Below are positions 23,281 through 31,424 of a DNA stretch of 64,000 nt, piece by piece. The stretch is from Salinicola corii. Its GTDB lineage: Bacteria > Pseudomonadota > Gammaproteobacteria > Pseudomonadales > Halomonadaceae. The DNA is taken from positions 1-64,000 of the forward strand of contig NZ_VTPX01000016.1 of NCBI RefSeq assembly GCF_008298015.1, in the 5' to 3' direction. Under the pieces are notes generated by a model. That model worked only from the letters and a program-made list of their open reading frames with translations, ran no database searches and was not told where the DNA came from. A program made the position numbers and the translations under genes. How positions within the stretch are numbered: the stretch's first letter is position 1; each line of letters begins with the position of its first letter.

Positions 23281-24711
<1,431 letters not shown>

Positions 24712-24865
24712 GGGATTGGCACCTCCTGCCACCGCTTCACCTTATCGCTGTCGATGAGGATGTGTCACGCTCGATGTGACGCGGTCGCGCGCGCCGAGAT
24801 ATGGCCTGGCATCGCGCGGATGGCTTGGTTTTACGTGAGTGTGGGTCGCGCGGACCTGGCGCGTC

Positions 24866-25411
24866 TCAGTCGCGGGCGTTGATCGTCCGCTCGATGTCGG
24901 TCAGCGCTTCCAGCTTGTCCGACATCTCCTTGAGCTGTTGCTTCAGCTTTTCGTTTTCCTGCTTCAGTGCCTGCGTGTCGTTGCTGCCGACATTCCCCCG
25001 GCTCCCGTTCGAGCCTCGCAGCGCGTAGAGCTGCCGGCGCTCCTCCAGCTCGTTCAACCACTGCTGCAGGAGGGGCTGCAGCCGGGGCGGTGCCGAGCCG
25101 ATCGCTGCCTTGTAGAAGTTCGAGGCCTGGGCCCATTGGCCGGGGCCGTCCCAGGAGAGCACCACGGCACGCACGGCTTTCTGATCCATGCGGCTCTGAC
25201 CAACCCGCTCCAGCACCTCGTCACGCCACTCGTCATCGCCTCGCTGCGCTTCCAGACCGAACGCGACCCAGGAATCGACCAGGCAGACATTGTCGGCGTA
25301 GGTGGGAATGTCACCACAGCCATATTGCCTGGGTTCGCCGGAAAGGGACTGGCAGCCCACTAGCGCCATCATGCCGAACAGGACGAGCGTCGTTCTTATC
25401 TGACTGACCAT
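24866..25411 (-). CDS. QseG-like lipoprotein
   Basis: The 181-residue protein has a lipoprotein signal ending LVGC (Cys20), a middle region with two further cysteines (YGCGDIP, DNVCLVDSW), and a C-terminal coiled coil (ALKQENEKLKQQLKEMSDKLEAL). By position between glrK and glrR it corresponds to QseG/YfhG, an outer-membrane protein that modulates the kinase. Its start overlaps the end of glrK by 16 bases, indicating translational coupling. Sequence similarity to QseG itself was not testable. Confidence 0.75.
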   Translation of the reverse strand: MVSQIRTTLVLFGMMALVGCQSLSGEPRQYGCGDIPTYADNVCLVDSWVAFGLEAQRGDDEWRDEVLERVGQSRMDQKAVRAVVLSWDGPGQWAQASNFYKAAIGSAPPRLQPLLQQWLNELEERRQLYALRGSNGSRGNVGSNDTQALKQENEKLKQQLKEMSDKLEALTDIERTINARD

Positions 25412-26916
25412 GTTTCTTTCCTTGCCTCACCGCCCGGAAACGTCTCGTCCGGCGCGGCCTCATTATCGTGTTGCGCTCCGCGCACCGGGGCGCTGGCCCA
25501 TGGCAGCGTGAGCCGGAAGCAGACAGGCAATTCGGTGTCATCCACCAGCGCCAGCTGTCCATCCTGCAATCGGGCGCAGTCCGCGGCGACCGAGAGCCCG
25601 ATACCGGAGCCCTTGAGCGGTCCCTTGCGACGCGCGCCGCCCTGATAGAACGCTTCGAACAGGTGCTCGCGGTCCGACTCGGCGATGGGATCCCCGCTAT
25701 TGGCAACGTCCAGCGCCAGCCAGTCGCGCTGATGGGCGACACGAATCATCAATTCGCCACCGTCGCTACCATAGGCGATAGCGTTCGAAATCAGGTTGTC
25801 CAGCACTCGTGCCGTGCGTTCACGATCGGCCTGCCAGGTCAGCGGATGGTGTGGACTCTTGACCTGCATGCCTTTGCTGTCGAGCGCCAGGCGATGCTTG
25901 GCGAGAACCTCCTGAATGACCGTCGCCACATCGAACTGGGTGACCTTCATTCGACGACTGTTCTGCAGCAGATTGTAATCCAGAAGCTGCTCGATCAATG
26001 TCTGCAACTCCTGGCCATTTTCATCGATCAATCGCACGACCTCGCTCTGCCGCTCGTTGAGCTCTCCGGCCACGCCGTCGGACAACAGTGACGTGCCCTC
26101 GCGAACGCTGGCCAGCGGTGTTTTCAGCTCATGCGACATGTGGCGCAGAAACTGCTGCTTCTGCGCTTCGAGCTCGGACAATCGGCCCGACAACCAGGTC
26201 AGCCGCTCACCCAACTGGACCAGCTCGGCAGGCCCCTGGATGCGGGTGGGCGTGTCACTATGATCGCCGCTACCGAGACCGAAGATCCGTCGCTCGAGCT
26301 GGCGGATGGGGCGCGTGATCAGCCAGGTGAAGAACAGCATCAACATCAGACTGGCGGAAACGAGGGCGGCGGTCTGCATCCACAGCCGGGCCTTCACCGC
26401 ATCGGCCTGTTCGCGGATATCGGCGATACGCGCGTCGATCAGGTCGTTGGTGGCGTCCCTCACCGCGTCGGACTCCGAGGCAAAACCCGAGAATCGCTGC
26501 AGGAACGCCCCCATATCGTCGACCGACGCCTGCGGCAGAACCCGGAGTTGCCGGAAGCGCTCGACCAGCGACTGAAAGTCGGGATTGTCGCGCATCAGAA
26601 GCTCGTGCTGTTCGAGCAGTTCACCGAACTGTTGGGCCTTCTCGTTGTAGATATCGCGCAGGCCCTCTTCTTCGATGACCGCGTATTGACGCGCGCTACG
26701 CTCCATCTGCAGCGCCAGCGAGCTCAGCATACGGGCACGGCGAGTCTCCTCGACGGCCTGCCGAGCGCTCTGGTCGGCCAGGGTCGAGAGCTGCGACAGC
26801 GCCTGTCCAGCCTGAAACATCAGCACGGCTATCGGCAACATGACGACGACGAATGCCAACAGTACCAGTTGCAAAAGCGAGCGAGGCCGCCAACGTCGGG
26901 AGAGCTCGGTGGTCAT
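25396..26916 (-). CDS. glrK: sensor histidine kinase GlrK (QseE-like)
   Basis: From 26916 the protein has about 506 residues: a membrane helix (SLLQLVLLAFVVVMLPIAVLMF), a long helical periplasmic sensor, a second helix (LVSASLMLMLFFTWLI), HAMP, the phosphorylated histidine in LRHMSHELKTPLASVREG, and an HATPase domain ending GSGIGLSVAADC. Three upstream in-frame starts exist (26943, 26952, 27015); none has a clear ribosome site, so the start is uncertain. It should phosphorylate GlrR in response to an envelope signal. Confidence 0.9.
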   Translation of the reverse strand: MTTELSRRWRPRSLLQLVLLAFVVVMLPIAVLMFQAGQALSQLSTLADQSARQAVEETRRARMLSSLALQMERSARQYAVIEEEGLRDIYNEKAQQFGELLEQHELLMRDNPDFQSLVERFRQLRVLPQASVDDMGAFLQRFSGFASESDAVRDATNDLIDARIADIREQADAVKARLWMQTAALVSASLMLMLFFTWLITRPIRQLERRIFGLGSGDHSDTPTRIQGPAELVQLGERLTWLSGRLSELEAQKQQFLRHMSHELKTPLASVREGTSLLSDGVAGELNERQSEVVRLIDENGQELQTLIEQLLDYNLLQNSRRMKVTQFDVATVIQEVLAKHRLALDSKGMQVKSPHHPLTWQADRERTARVLDNLISNAIAYGSDGGELMIRVAHQRDWLALDVANSGDPIAESDREHLFEAFYQGGARRKGPLKGSGIGLSVAADCARLQDGQLALVDDTELPVCFRLTLPWASAPVRGAQHDNEAAPDETFPGGEARKETWSVR

Positions 26917-27074
26917 GGAATTCGCTCTATGCAGGATGCCCATTGGGGTCATGGATCGTTCCGCAAGGATAACATCTTTGTTGAATGCCCATTCGGGTCG
27001 AACCGTCGAGCGCATCTCCAGATCTCAGCCCCGCCAATCGACGATTGGCTCCGATCGTTCGCTGGGAATCCACT

Positions 27075-27102
27075 CAAAAAAAGAGGGCCGGCAGAGCCGG
27101 CC
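27075..27102 (-). terminator. intrinsic terminator of the candidate small RNA
   Basis: Perfect 8-bp arms GGGCCGGC and GCCGGCCC around a 3-base loop are followed on the minus strand by TC and seven T. No protein gene ends upstream of it on this strand, which itself argues for a non-coding transcript. Confidence 0.85.
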
Positions 27103-27531
27103 CAAGGTACGCAGGGAACTGAAGGGTCGAGAACGACCTTGAAATGCTGCCTGAATCAGCTATTCGAGACCGCTCCCGTGGCCCGAAGGCCCCGAAGCCG
27201 ATATTCGACTGAGCCATTCAGGGGCTATCGAATATCGGGGCGGCGAACCGCCTGCTTCGTCTTCGGGCCGGCCGTCAGACCTGCGTTTGTCAAGCCTGAC
27301 GACCGGCCGCAATGGGTCCCCTCTCGCGAGGGGGAAGGCATCCTTGCCGGGGCATCCTTGCCCAAGTGGTGCGTTTCCTTGCCCAATGGGCCGCACCCGT
27401 CTCATCGCAACCTAAGTCACACATCGCGTGGAGCAGACGCTGACGAACCCTGACGGCCCTGCACAGGGTAGTCGAAGAACCTGACAGGATTCGGCGAGAC
27501 GATTCCGAAGACGTCGTCTCGTCGCTCTCGA
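27075..27531 (-). ncRNA. candidate structured small RNA under sigma-54 control
   Basis: Between glrK and argA there is no convincing protein gene over 764 bases. Reading the minus strand from the sigma-54 promoter, about 455 bases precede an intrinsic terminator. The stretch is rich in long inverted repeats: 27198-27208 with 27228-27238 (11-bp perfect arms), 27266-27308, CCCCTC with GAGGGG near 27319-27334, and 27493-27517. Two tandem hairpins, GGC-AAGGAU-GCC (27348-27337) and GGGC-AAGGAU-GCCC (27363-27350), expose AAGGAU loops typical of CsrA/RsmA sites. In enterics the same position holds the GlrR-activated GlmY RNA. This one is longer, so its identity is inferred from location and structure, not similarity. 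Confidence 0.55.
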
Positions 27532-27540
27532 CAAGACTGT

Positions 27541-27556
27541 TGCGATAGCCGTGCCA
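27541..27556 (-). promoter_or_regulatory. sigma-54 promoter
   Basis: On the minus strand TGGCACGGCTATCGCA matches the consensus TGGCACG-N4-TTGCA at every defined base except one. The GG and GC are separated by exactly 10 bases. The expected start is near 27531. The AT-rich stretch 27559-27597 upstream could bind IHF or hold activator sites. Confidence 0.8.
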
Positions 27557-27647
27557 GGTTTTTAAAAATCAAAAAATATCAATAACTTAAAAACACACCA
27601 TTCCACCTTGCCGGACCACTGCCCGCCGATTGCCACGAAAGAACGAA

Positions 27648-27696
27648 AAAAAGGGCCAAACATGTCGTCTTTGACAGACGTTTTTTGGCCCTTTTT
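27648..27696. terminator. bidirectional intrinsic terminator after argA
   Basis: Arms AAAAAGGGCCAAA (27648-27660) and TTTGGCCCTTTTT (27684-27696) are perfectly complementary and the loop holds a smaller CGTCT/AGACG stem. Each strand ends in a T run (seven on the minus strand). It terminates argA and insulates the sigma-54 promoter. A second hairpin without T run (27727-27746) lies nearer argA. Confidence 0.85.
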
Positions 27697-27779
27697 CATA
27701 TATTTCAATGAAATCATCAGCTTGGCGCGTCTCCATTTGGAGACGCCATGGTGGAAAACTCACCGTTTCAGGTGTCGCT

Positions 27780-29147
27780 TTACAGCGACTTCAGCAAGAC
27801 CTTGGAGCGCCGGGCCTGGTTGTAGGTCTCGCGCTTGAGGTCCGGCAGCGCTTCCGGCGTGGCGAGTGAAAAACCCCGCTCCACGAACCAGTGGGTGGTA
27901 TGGGTCGTCAGGGCGAACAGTTGGGTGAATCCCCGGCGACGTGCGCGGCGCTCTATCTCCGCAAGCAGAGTCTCCCCTCGGTTCCCCCGGCGATAGTCGG
28001 TGTGCACGGCCAGACAAGCGAGTTCGCCCATCTTCGCCTCGGAGTAGCCATGCAGCGCCGCACAACCGATCGCCATACCGTCGCGATCGATCACCACGTA
28101 ATCCTCGATCTCGTGTTCCAACCGCTCGCGGGTTCGAGCCACCAGCATGCCGCTGGCCTCGAGCGGCTTGAGCAGGGCCAGCAGGCCACCGACGTCATCC
28201 AGCATGGCCTGGCGCAGCAGCTCGTAGCGGTTCTGGGTGATCATGGTGCCGACGCCGTCGCGAGTGAACAGCTCGCCGAGCAGAGCATCGTGATCGCGCC
28301 ACGAGAGCAGATGGGTACGGCCGACGCCGTGGCGAGCCGCATCGCAGGCGGCGCTCAAATGCCGGGAGAGTTCGCTGCCAGGGCTGGCCTGTTCGCGAAG
28401 GATGTCGGCTTCGTCGGGGGATAACTGGCGCTGCAACTGGCCACAGTCGTCGTGCAGCCCGGCCGACTCGCCAAGCAGAATCAACTTGTCCGCCTTGAGC
28501 GAGATCGCCACGTGCTGGGCGATTTCCGAGGCATCGAGGTCGAAGACCTCACCAGTGCGGGAGTAGCCCAAGGGAGGCAGAATCACCAGATTGCCGCCGG
28601 CAAGCAGGCTCTCGATGGCCTGACTGCGCACCCGGCGCACTTCCCCGCTGTGATCGAAATCCACACCACCGCGCACTCCCAGCGGCTTGGCCGTGACCAG
28701 ATTGCCGGAAACCGCCGTCAGCTCCACGCCATGCAGCGGCGTGTTGGGCAGGCCCAGGGAGAGCTGAGCCTCCAGCTCGAGCCGGTGGGTCGCTGCGATC
28801 CGCTCGACATGATCCATGATTTCACGATCGGCCACCCAGCGTCCGTCGACACGAACCGGCTCGATACCGGCGGTCTCCAGTGCGGCGGCAACCTGGGGCC
28901 GAATGCCGTAGACGAGCGCCACCCGCACGCCCAGGGTGTGTACCAGCGCCAGATCCTGCAGCAATTGACCGCGTCGCGCCGACGCCATCGCCTCGCCTTC
29001 CACCAGAATGACGAAGGTCTTGCCGCGGTGGGCGTTGACGTAGGGCGATGAATGGCGAAACCAGTCGACGAAGGGAAAACGCGAGTCCAAGGGCTTGACG
29101 CTCCGGCAGTGGGCTGTGAGGCATGATCCGCGTGGGGCCTGCCTCAA
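27780..29147 (-). CDS. argA: amino-acid N-acetyltransferase (N-acetylglutamate synthase)
   Basis: The enzyme catalyses the first step of arginine synthesis, acetylating glutamate. FVDWFRHSSPYVNAHRGKTFVILVEG is the ArgA N-terminus, followed by the amino-acid-kinase-like regulatory domain (LVHTLGVRVALVYGIRPQV) that senses arginine, and the C-terminal GNAT domain (ACLAVHTDYRRGNRGETLLAEIE). No ATG or GTG fits the start: the frame opens with TTG at 29147, and a TTG at 29090 has CGGAG about 10 bases upstream and fits family length better. The end at 27780 is firm. Confidence 0.93.
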   Translation of the reverse strand: MRQAPRGSCLTAHCRSVKPLDSRFPFVDWFRHSSPYVNAHRGKTFVILVEGEAMASARRGQLLQDLALVHTLGVRVALVYGIRPQVAAALETAGIEPVRVDGRWVADREIMDHVERIAATHRLELEAQLSLGLPNTPLHGVELTAVSGNLVTAKPLGVRGGVDFDHSGEVRRVRSQAIESLLAGGNLVILPPLGYSRTGEVFDLDASEIAQHVAISLKADKLILLGESAGLHDDCGQLQRQLSPDEADILREQASPGSELSRHLSAACDAARHGVGRTHLLSWRDHDALLGELFTRDGVGTMITQNRYELLRQAMLDDVGGLLALLKPLEASGMLVARTRERLEHEIEDYVVIDRDGMAIGCAALHGYSEAKMGELACLAVHTDYRRGNRGETLLAEIERRARRRGFTQLFALTTHTTHWFVERGFSLATPEALPDLKRETYNQARRSKVLLKSL

Positions 29148-29241: not shown

Positions 29242-30510
29242 TCAGCCGAACATGCCCTTGAACATGAAGAAGAAGGCGATGGAGAGTAGCGCCCCCGCCG
29301 GCAGGGTGATGAGCCAGGAGAGCACGATCGAGCCGAGCACGCGCAGGTTGAGTGCTGCCATGCCGCGCGCCAGGCCGACCCCGAGCACGGCGCCGACCAG
29401 CGTGTGCGTGGTCGAGATCGGCAAACCGGTACCGGAGGCCAGCACGACGGTGGAGGCGGCGGAAAGCGTCGCCGCGAAACCGCGGCTCGGGGTCAGTTCG
29501 GTGATCCCGGTGCCGACGGTGGCGATGACCTTGTGGCCGTAGGTCACCAGGCCGACGACGATCCCGCCGCCGCCGAGCACCAGCACCCACCACGGCATGG
29601 TGGCCGAGCCGGTCACGCTGCCGCTGTTCTCGACCACGCTGATCACCGCCGCCAGCGGGCCGACCGCGTTGGCGACGTCGTTCGAGCCGTGAGCGAAGGC
29701 CATGGCGCAGGCCGTGAACATCATCAACACGCCGAAGATGCGCTCTACGCTGGAGAAGTCGTAGTTGCTGCGAGCACGCCGGTCGCCGCGGTTGATCCGG
29801 TTTTCCAGCAGCAGCCCCAACATCATGATGACGACGCCGAACGCCACCGCCAGCAGCAGGCTCTCGCCGAAGGTCAGATGTAGACCGACGTGGGACAACC
29901 CCTTGACCAAGGTCACCATCGAAACGATGAAGCCGACCAGGAAGATATATCCCGGCACGTAGCGCTTGGCCGCCGCGAACGGGTCGGGATTGTCGAAGAT
30001 CAGCACCTGCACGGAACGGAACAGCATGAAGGCGAACACCCCCGCGATCAGCGGTGAGGTGATCCAACTGAGCGCGATCGTTCCCACCGACCCCCAGTTG
30101 ACCGACTGGACACCGAGCCCGGCCACCGCGAACCCGACGATGGCCCCCACGATGGAGTGGGTGGTGGAGACCGGCCAGCCCTTCATGGAGGCAATCATCA
30201 ACCACGAGCCGGCCGCCAACAGCGACGCCAGCATGCCGTAGATCAGCATCTGGGGGTCGCTCTCCAGCAGGCCGGGGTCGATGATGCCTTTGCGGATCGT
30301 TTCGGTGACCTGCCCCCCGGCCAGCCAGGCGCCGAGGAATTCGAAGATCACCGCGATGATGATCGCCTGCTTGATGGTGATCGCCTTGGAGCCGACCGAG
30401 GTTCCCATGGCATTGGCGACATCGTTGGCACCAACCCCCCATGCCATGAAGAAACCGAAAACACAGGCGAGAATGATGAAGACATCACCGTATTGCGCAA
30501 TGATGGACAT
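29242..30510 (-). CDS. inorganic phosphate transporter, PiT family
   Basis: The 422-residue membrane protein has the two PiT signature repeats: GANDVANAMGTSVGSKAITIKQA near the N-terminus and HGSNDVANAVGPLAAV in the second half, with STTHSIVGAIVGFA and STTHTLVGAVLGVG. It imports phosphate, or metal phosphate, with sodium or protons. It follows the DUF47 gene by 55 bases in the same direction, the usual pair. Confidence 0.95.
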   Translation of the reverse strand: MSIIAQYGDVFIILACVFGFFMAWGVGANDVANAMGTSVGSKAITIKQAIIIAVIFEFLGAWLAGGQVTETIRKGIIDPGLLESDPQMLIYGMLASLLAAGSWLMIASMKGWPVSTTHSIVGAIVGFAVAGLGVQSVNWGSVGTIALSWITSPLIAGVFAFMLFRSVQVLIFDNPDPFAAAKRYVPGYIFLVGFIVSMVTLVKGLSHVGLHLTFGESLLLAVAFGVVIMMLGLLLENRINRGDRRARSNYDFSSVERIFGVLMMFTACAMAFAHGSNDVANAVGPLAAVISVVENSGSVTGSATMPWWVLVLGGGGIVVGLVTYGHKVIATVGTGITELTPSRGFAATLSAASTVVLASGTGLPISTTHTLVGAVLGVGLARGMAALNLRVLGSIVLSWLITLPAGALLSIAFFFMFKGMFG

Positions 30511-30565
30511 AGGCTTTGTTCGCTTGAGTGGCGTGACGAAGGCGTAGAATGACGAAGACCCGCTA

Positions 30566-31246
30566 TCAGCGGGCCGTCAGTATCTGCAGGCGGCTACCCA
30601 CGCGCTCGGCGCGGTCGGACAACTCGCCGATCCATTCGATGATTTTATAGAGGAAGATGACATCGACCGGCGGCAGTTCCGCTTCGAGCTGGAACAGCTG
30701 GCGGCGAATGTCGACCTGCTGATCATCGGCCTGGTGCTCGAGATCGTGCAGTTCCTTGATCAGTTCGTGCATCACGTCGGAGACATTGCGACCGAAGCCC
30801 GACTCGAGCAGGTCCTCGAGTTCTTCCAGCGCCTTGCGCGCCTGGTCGACGGTGTCCACGGCAGTCCGCAGATAATCGCGCATCGGCTCCGCCAGCGGCT
30901 CGGGAATGCTCATGTTGCGGCCGAGCATGATACCGGTGATATCCCGGGCCTTGTTGGCGATCTTGTCCTGGACGCTGATCAACTCCAGCAGGTCGGAACG
31001 CGATACCGGTAGAAACATGGTGTTGGGCAGGTTGAGGCGCAGTTGCGTCTTGAGTTCGTCCGCCTCGTGCTCGAGTCGGGTGATCGCCTCGCGATGCTTG
31101 CGCGCTTCTTCCCAGTCGCCCCCCAGCGCGGCATCGAAAAAAGGCAACAGCTGGCCGGCGCATTCGCTGGTCTTGACGATGTGAGCCAGAAGCGGCTGGA
31201 ACGGCGATCGTCCAAACAGCGCCGAGAACGGGTTGGTACTCACCAT
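30566..31246 (-). CDS. DUF47/PhoU-like phosphate transport accessory protein
   Basis: A 226-residue, almost wholly helical protein of the TIGR00153 group: NPFSALFGRSPFQPLLAHI start, EHEADELKTQLRLNLPNTMFLPVSRSDLLELISVQDKIAN core with conserved acidic residues. Members lie beside PiT transporters and are thought to regulate them. The start at 31246 (MVSTNPFSALF) matches the family; an upstream ATG at 31309 is less likely. Confidence 0.9.
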   Translation of the reverse strand: MVSTNPFSALFGRSPFQPLLAHIVKTSECAGQLLPFFDAALGGDWEEARKHREAITRLEHEADELKTQLRLNLPNTMFLPVSRSDLLELISVQDKIANKARDITGIMLGRNMSIPEPLAEPMRDYLRTAVDTVDQARKALEELEDLLESGFGRNVSDVMHELIKELHDLEHQADDQQVDIRRQLFQLEAELPPVDVIFLYKIIEWIGELSDRAERVGSRLQILTAR

Positions 31247-31424
31247 AACGTGGCCTGGATGCGTTGGAAGTGGCGGCGCCAGTATAATGATTGCGTCTGG
31301 ATGCGTCATGAAAAATTCATGTTACGCCCCGCGGCCCGGCTGTCGGGCAAATGACCTGGCCGCCGGCCCTGGAGGGGCCATTTCAGATCGGGCAACCAAC
31401 GACCGGCCAACACCAGGAAGCTGC

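Follow-up and report, generated by a model that had tools for sequence, protein, structure and literature searches.

The closest described counterpart of the RNA gene reported here is GlmY of the Enterobacterales, which it resembles in its position in the locus, its sigma-54 promoter and the type of its upstream activating sites (TGTN12ACA or TGTCN10GACA). It differs from GlmY in having no Rfam match, a length of 455 nt, a conserved triple of ANGGA sites and a putative seed to the flhD Shine-Dalgarno region. In Escherichia coli, QseF activates glmY from three TGTN12ACA sites together with IHF, according to the part of the report available to us (PMC6075780), and the QseF consensus is also written TGTCN10GACA in the accessible portion of a second paper (PMC8745638). 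The same portion describes glmY-qseEGF of Proteus mirabilis as one operon, reports lower flhDC expression in qseF and glmY mutants, and states that a GlmY site was looked for but not found at the flhDC ribosome-binding site (PMC8745638). The sign in Proteus is thus opposite to the direct repression of flhDC that we predict for the RNA described here.

Two other groups of RNAs are relevant for comparison. The CsrA-titrating RNAs CsrB/CsrC and RsmX/Y/Z share with this RNA the ANGGA sites with a free N, two of three of which lie in hairpin loops here, whereas this RNA has three sites only (CsrB has far more), a sigma-54/GlrR-type promoter, an additional pairing block and no Rfam match. Vibrio Qrr RNAs are several sigma-54-driven sister small RNAs with a common pairing region, and McaS of E. 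coli is a single RNA that both base-pairs and titrates CsrA; the likeness to both is in design only, as they depend on other activators and no sequence relation is shown. ArcZ, OmrA/B and OxyS have promoters, sequences and a lineage unlike those of this RNA. What they share with the proposed RNA is the repression of flhDC by a small RNA, described for E. coli in the sections available of two papers (PMC3937308, PMC4606813). As far as the accessible texts go, CsrA binds ANGGA in hairpins (PMC12889724) and stabilises flhDC mRNA in E. coli (PMC3937308). A search of the open literature, with subscription journals largely outside it, did not bring up a paper about this RNA, which is weak evidence of novelty.

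The window is a stretch of 64,000 nucleotides from Salinicola corii (contig NZ_VTPX01000016.1, positions 1 to 64,000). On its minus strand, the open reading frames and Pfam matches give the order argA-like gene, RNA, glrK, qseG (PF13942) and glrR, so that the RNA lies immediately upstream of qseE-qseG-qseF, which is the location of GlmY. The features are as follows.

23281..24732, minus strand: glrR/qseF, sigma-54 activator (Pfam)
24866..25411, minus strand: qseG-like lipoprotein, YfhG/QseG (PF13942, E 8e-9)
25396..26916, minus strand: glrK/qseE histidine kinase (Pfam HisKA, HATPase_c)
27076..27530, minus strand: RNA gene, 455 nt; the predicted start, about 12 nt past the -12 GC, is approximate
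27076..27103, minus strand: intrinsic terminator, conserved hairpin followed by a T run
27104..27127, minus strand: conserved 3' block ACCCUUCAGUUCCCUGCGUACCUU, 24 nt; TTCCCTGCGTA exact in 80/80 glrK-upstream regions
27108..27119, minus strand: putative seed GUUCCCUGCGUA within the 3' block, complementary to the flhD Shine-Dalgarno region
27266..27308, minus strand: long hairpin, helix 10, with the strongest compensatory changes
27318..27333, minus strand: hairpin CCCCUC-GCGA-GAGGGG, helix 7, with two-sided changes in 4/5 pairs
27336..27349, minus strand: hairpin GGCAAGGAUGCC with AAGGAU loop; ANGGA site 3 at 27345..27341
27350..27363, minus strand: hairpin GGGCAAGGAUGCCC with AAGGAU loop; ANGGA site 2 at 27359..27355
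27368..27397, minus strand: stem with bulged ANGGA site 1 at 27380..27376
27398..27439, minus strand: conserved core CGUCUGCUCCACGCGAUGUGUGACUUAGGUUGCGAUGAGACG, about 40 nt, two stacked helices with near-invariant loops
27521..27532, minus strand: 5' arm of a possible long-range closing helix in the minimum free energy fold, partner 27137..27126
27541..27556, minus strand: sigma-54 promoter TGGCACGGCTATCGCA, TGGCACG-N4-TCGCA, 11/12 specified consensus bases
27577..27589, minus strand: IHF-like candidate site, plus-strand TATCAATAACTTA
27663..27680, no strand assigned: GlrR/QseF-type site CGTCTGTCAAAGACGACA, one mismatch to TGTCN10GACA, 124 bp before the promoter
27728..27745, no strand assigned: second, weaker GlrR-type site CGTCTCCAAATGGAGACG, two mismatches, 189 bp before the promoter
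27780..29147, minus strand: argA-like gene (ORF), upstream of the RNA

The gene at 27780..29147 is presumably argA, judging from its sequence, and among the 80 glrK loci that were fetched, 73 have a homologue on the same strand. Adjoining it are genes that, from sequence alone, we take to encode a Pit-like phosphate transporter and a PhoU-like protein (window 29242-31309), an ordinary neighbourhood. The closest glrK loci in the scan of genome contigs are those of Salinicola.

The original prediction of a sigma-54 promoter one base from consensus, followed by about 455 bases of strong structure with no protein gene and a terminator, is borne out. No credible protein gene lies in the 455 nt that run from about 27530 through the last base of the U-rich terminator, and the RNA folds with a minimum free energy of -227.9 (z -6.96; 0/100 shuffles as stable). 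Mechanically listed open reading frames overlap the most conserved block, but single-base indels between genera (CTTAGG / CTTCAGG / CTTTAGG) lie inside this block and disfavour a protein reading, and a protein-coding role for the conserved core was rejected on the same grounds. Pairing between matched 5' and 3' ends is slightly stronger than after permutation (mean -16.3 vs -15.3; 4/2000 permutations reach this value, in a test that leaves relatedness in).

The scan of genome contigs gave 158 glrK relatives, of which we kept the best 80 loci (81 including the window); from their titles we take the genera to be Halomonadaceae, one being labelled only Gammaproteobacteria. A sigma-54 site lies upstream of glrK in 80/81 of these loci, the sole exception being an incomplete locus (L053). 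In the 80 loci the TGGC...GC site scores at least 10/12 and lies 436 to 711 nt before the matched glrK start, and TTCCCTGCGTA is exact in all of them, with a run of at least five T within 64 nt after it. An alignment of 69 of the 80 promoter-bearing loci conserves the core (27439..27398), the three CANGGA sites and the 3' block. For the structure written from the window, 85.4% of cells pair in this alignment, and two-sided base-pair changes, sought in Halomonadaceae as the original prediction had proposed, occur in 355 cells, compared with 160.7 for shuffles and no more than 199 for slid partners. These controls remove relatedness only in part, and a structure taken from one alignment row is favoured. 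Two elements covary most clearly, the hairpin at 27308..27266 and the stem that holds ANGGA site 1; helix 13 is poorly supported (40.5% of cells pair). When RNAalifold is applied to the complete alignment, it finds few pairs in the 5' third, which is variable. Because promoter, spaced triple, 3' block and terminator recur in relatives, we accept the observation: judged by comparative sequence analysis, the RNA gene is real and conserved in Halomonadaceae.

Its distribution was followed with shorter words from the 3' block. The 18-mer (at most one mismatch) is detected in 9/293 genomes of the order, comprising 8/12 of the window's family and one genome of another family (G076), where the place (L082, one mismatch) reads as coding DNA and was taken as chance. 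An exact 16-mer is detected in 2/369 genomes of the class, both from the window's family, of which three were sampled, and the 12-mer, a length at which chance matches are common, in 143/201 family genomes. Four genomes of genus g3 have neither the 18-mer nor a glrK match at E<=1e-40, a joint absence that speaks for control by GlrR. In four other family genomes (G293, G303, G304 and G305) a glrK homologue is present, and the sigma-54 site and 3' block were not found before it. The glrK homologue of G305 (L106) has one in-frame TGA in the match, and its GlrK system may be decaying. In two outgroup glrK loci (G037 and G023) no such RNA was seen; G037 has a sigma-54-like site shortly before glrK.

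GlrR/QseF-type sites, overlooked in the original prediction, are strongly enriched ahead of the promoter. TGTCN10GACA occurs within 250 nt before it exactly in 15/80 loci and with at most one mismatch in 63/80 (shuffles 0.24 and 6.5). Near -234, a match that recurs in Salinicola runs into the end of argA, and so we give also the counts within 200 nt, which exclude this end (exact 15/80, at most one mismatch 56/80; shuffles 0.2 and 4.1). Across the 80 loci the sites recur at offsets near -222, -191 and -125, and the offset of the window's site at 27663..27680 is among those that recur. The candidate TATCAATAACTTA is taken as IHF-like as it fits the consensus WATCAANNNNTTR. The pairing of a sigma-54 promoter with QseF-type upstream sites, as at glmY, is thus found here in sequence, although the window's own sites have one and two mismatches. 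A GacA/UvrY box as the alternative route of transcription was rejected: the two GacA-box near-matches in the genome (at most one mismatch) are both on other contigs, and the promoter here is of sigma-54 type. The enrichment indicates that the RNA occupies the place of GlmY before QseEGF, in agreement with the original prediction of a positional equivalent, and the RNA gene is probably under the control of the envelope-stress sensor GlrKR. An RNA that has no detectable similarity to GlmY is here joined to the regulator and promoter design of glmY, so that GlrR control seems to have been kept while the RNA was exchanged.

A candidate target is suggested by the 3' block (27127..27104), which, like the core, the original prediction had passed over. 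The 12-mer GUUCCCUGCGUA occurs twice in the window's genome, once in the RNA and once on the complementary strand at G000:C27:175512-175523. The second place is the Shine-Dalgarno region of flhD, which reads CCATACGCAGGGAACCTAGCA-ATG and is a perfect 12-nt complement of GUUCCCUGCGUA; the genes that follow are flhD (PF05247, E 2e-32) and flhC (PF05280, E 4e-84). Nine places in the genome match a 10-mer of the block, one of them the RNA and one flhD; the other seven, read for 50-60 nt on each side, lack the family terminator and were discarded. Among 39 CGCAGGGAA places in the genome, only that of flhD has an ATG-started reading frame of at least 60 aa at Shine-Dalgarno distance, and four others have only GTG or TTG starts.

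The match tracks the presence of the RNA. We identified flhD in 54/71 family genomes and read 50 leaders. YGYRGGG, a motif with which the block can pair if G-U pairs are counted, is present in the 28 nt ahead of flhD in 34/42 genomes with the RNA and 0/8 without it (11/15 vs 0/3 by genus), the status being assigned by the 12-mer scan, in which chance matches are common. The genera with the RNA that lack the motif are g2, g122, g123 and g128, and the motif is detected at none of 310 starts of glrK, qseG, glrR and argA. The mean predicted duplex energy is -20.05 kcal/mol in genomes with the RNA and -12.0 in those without it, although two RNA-less leaders score -19.4 and -17.1 and the seed is rich in G+C: in several genomes, numerous control windows from the same locus pair equally well (for example, 61/125 in G102 and 80/124 in G302). 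Accessibility of the seed is only moderately above that of the rest of the RNA (0.44 vs 0.34; higher in 63/78). As expected of a base-pairing small RNA, a conserved seed complements the ribosome-binding site of a target, with the motif in 11 of the 15 genera. Of the features that would go with action through Hfq or ProQ, a U-rich terminator was observed. Pairing with flhD is therefore supported by comparison, and repression would be its consequence.

Pairing with flhD involves only half of the conserved block, so that further targets are likely. The other half, CCCUUCA, is complemented by TGAAGGG, which lies within 220 nt before flhD in 6/42 genomes with the RNA and 0/8 without it (0.7 expected over all 50); five of these are at -63 to -73 (g5, g7 and g133) and one at -112 (g4). 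A search for targets of this half with CAGGGAACTGAAGG (at most one mismatch, seven genomes) returned the RNAs and scattered places, and no recurrent ribosome-binding site was found among the 12 places read (50-75 nt around). The core at 27398-27439 of the long form has a conserved loop GUGUGACUUAG and may bind a protein or a second target.

Genomes with several 12-mer matches were examined for sibling RNAs. Of the 20 stretches, four are long forms, nine are other RNAs whose sigma-54 site scores 9/12 or better, and seven lack such a site. Adding L089 and the second RNA of each of L102 and L103 to the nine gives twelve sigma-54 siblings, which are 101 to about 290 nt in length. A GlrR-type site with at most one mismatch is found in 10/12 of them (1.15 expected). 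ANGGA sites number five or six in four siblings (L089, L123, L125 and L127, where several lie in hairpins with other stems), one in four, and none in four, and the conserved core was not found in any of the ten siblings checked. The siblings were found by the block, so that sharing it is no independent evidence; with the core absent, the ANGGA count variable and the promoter design common, what seems to define the family is the block together with the promoter, and not the AAGGAU hairpins. L102 and L103 have tandem sigma-54 RNAs before glrK, a long one followed by one of about 210 nt, each with the 3' block, and this arrangement is a likely birthplace of siblings. L089, in which no GlrR-type site within one mismatch was detected, sits between two genes that, from their sequence, we take to encode membrane proteins, one of them YqaE/Pmp3-like. 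In L112, L114, L116 and L118 a palindrome ACCCGG...CCGGGTA stands ahead of the 12-mer GTTCCCTGCGTA, the genes nearby are unrelated (presumably OsmC-like in three genomes and acetyltransferase-like in one), and no family-type sigma-54 site was detected. The 12-mer of L119 looked like chance.

The 18-mer is also detected in five predicted viral contigs of IMG/VR (L208-L212), each time followed by a G+C-rich hairpin and T run. In these five, and in L092, L124, L126 and L186, block and terminator are present but no sigma-54 promoter was recognised. Two repressor-like genes lie at most about 2 kb from the copy in L210, and L212 has an integrase-like reading frame, named from sequence, about 1.4 kb away. 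L208 and L212 contain all of L092 and L124, which come from G277 and G403 and likewise lack the sigma-54 site. The promoterless copies are possibly prophage mimics of the host RNA.

The original prediction proposed a CsrA-sequestering RNA from two AAGGAU hairpins. Besides these, there is a third CAAGGA at 27381..27376. The number of ANGGA sites is unremarkable (3 in the window's RNA, 1.8 expected, 266/1000 shuffles reach 3), while the spaced triple is rare (1/3000 shuffles). In the alignment (n=69), site 1 has A 69, N = A38 T21 G4 C6, G 69, G 68 and A 67, and site 3 has A 69, N = A42 T24 C3 and GGA 69; at site 2, between 65 and 68 sequences retain the A and the GGA, and A prevails at N (64). 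A free N with A and GGA fixed around it is thus evident at sites 1 and 3 and not at site 2. This pattern is what CsrA binding predicts and lends it support. Two sites lie in hairpin loops, as in Csr/Rsm RNAs, one is bulged, and the genome encodes one canonical CsrA. The genome has no RsmZ above cut-off (best 21.7 bits vs 44) and no ANGGA cluster beside the two GacA-box near-matches, a pattern whose control gave equally many matches; CsrB, CsrC and RsmY models were searched against the window only, where neither these nor the RsmZ model matched. An RNA that acts mainly by titrating CsrA/RsmA under GlrKR rather than GacSA, its 3' block being a processing or Hfq-loading element, could claim all of this as well as the four ANGGA-rich siblings, but we consider it unlikely: the block's match to the flhD Shine-Dalgarno region tracks the RNA, 8/12 sigma-54 siblings have at most one ANGGA, and three sites are far below the number in CsrB. 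The original proposal is strengthened by the substitution pattern, the encoded CsrA and the four siblings; what it missed is the flhD-complementary block. Since this block complements the flhD ribosome-binding site and most siblings are poor in ANGGA, the long form probably titrates CsrA as a second arm and not as its whole function.

A functional replacement of GlmY, with RapZ binding, control of glmS and an incidental flhD match, is less probable still. The glmY-like place before qseEGF with sigma-54 and QseF-type sites (as in the accessible part of PMC6075780) and the conserved core stem with its internal loop would fit such a role. Against it stand the length of 455 nt, the absence of the core from the ten siblings examined for it, and the covariance search that the original prediction had called for (Rfam GlmY, GlmZ and CsrB), which gave no match: nothing in the window reaches the Rfam gathering cut-off, and GlmY and GlmZ are absent among the 10 matches at E<=10 in region 26900-27800. 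Identity with suhB/mmgR (best score 25 bits vs cut-off 41) or SorY (weak, E<=10) was rejected, both matches lying at the terminator end. A long structured cis-acting leader of glrK with no independent RNA is the least credible reading, for while the element precedes glrK in all 80 promoter-bearing loci and Proteus glmY-qseEGF is one operon (PMC8745638, in the part available), the terminator hairpin and T run are conserved and free-standing siblings occur elsewhere, some on predicted viral contigs.

We thus favour, with a probability of about 0.7, a family of GlrKR/sigma-54 small RNAs that represses flhDC by base pairing and whose long form probably has CsrA titration as its second arm. Phosphorylated GlrR would bind the TGTCN10GACA-type sites, probably with IHF, and activate transcription; GUUCCCUGCGUA would pair with the flhD Shine-Dalgarno region, blocking FlhDC translation and lowering flagellar gene expression; in the long form, the three conserved CANGGA sites would bind and titrate CsrA. 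As CsrA stabilises flhDC mRNA in E. coli, both arms would reduce motility, and an active sensor would lower it through both. More tentatively, a single envelope-sensor/sigma-54 RNA may join flhD silencing to CsrA withdrawal, its pairing module having spread to sister RNAs and been taken up by prophages, perhaps against host swimming.

The QseEGF/GlrKR locus is known in enterobacteria for GlmY, and its apparent new output here is the flagellar master regulator, through a conserved RNA family without a match in Rfam 15. If this is true, base pairing and CsrA titration would be joined under sigma-54, and halophiles would have a direct switch from envelope to motility.
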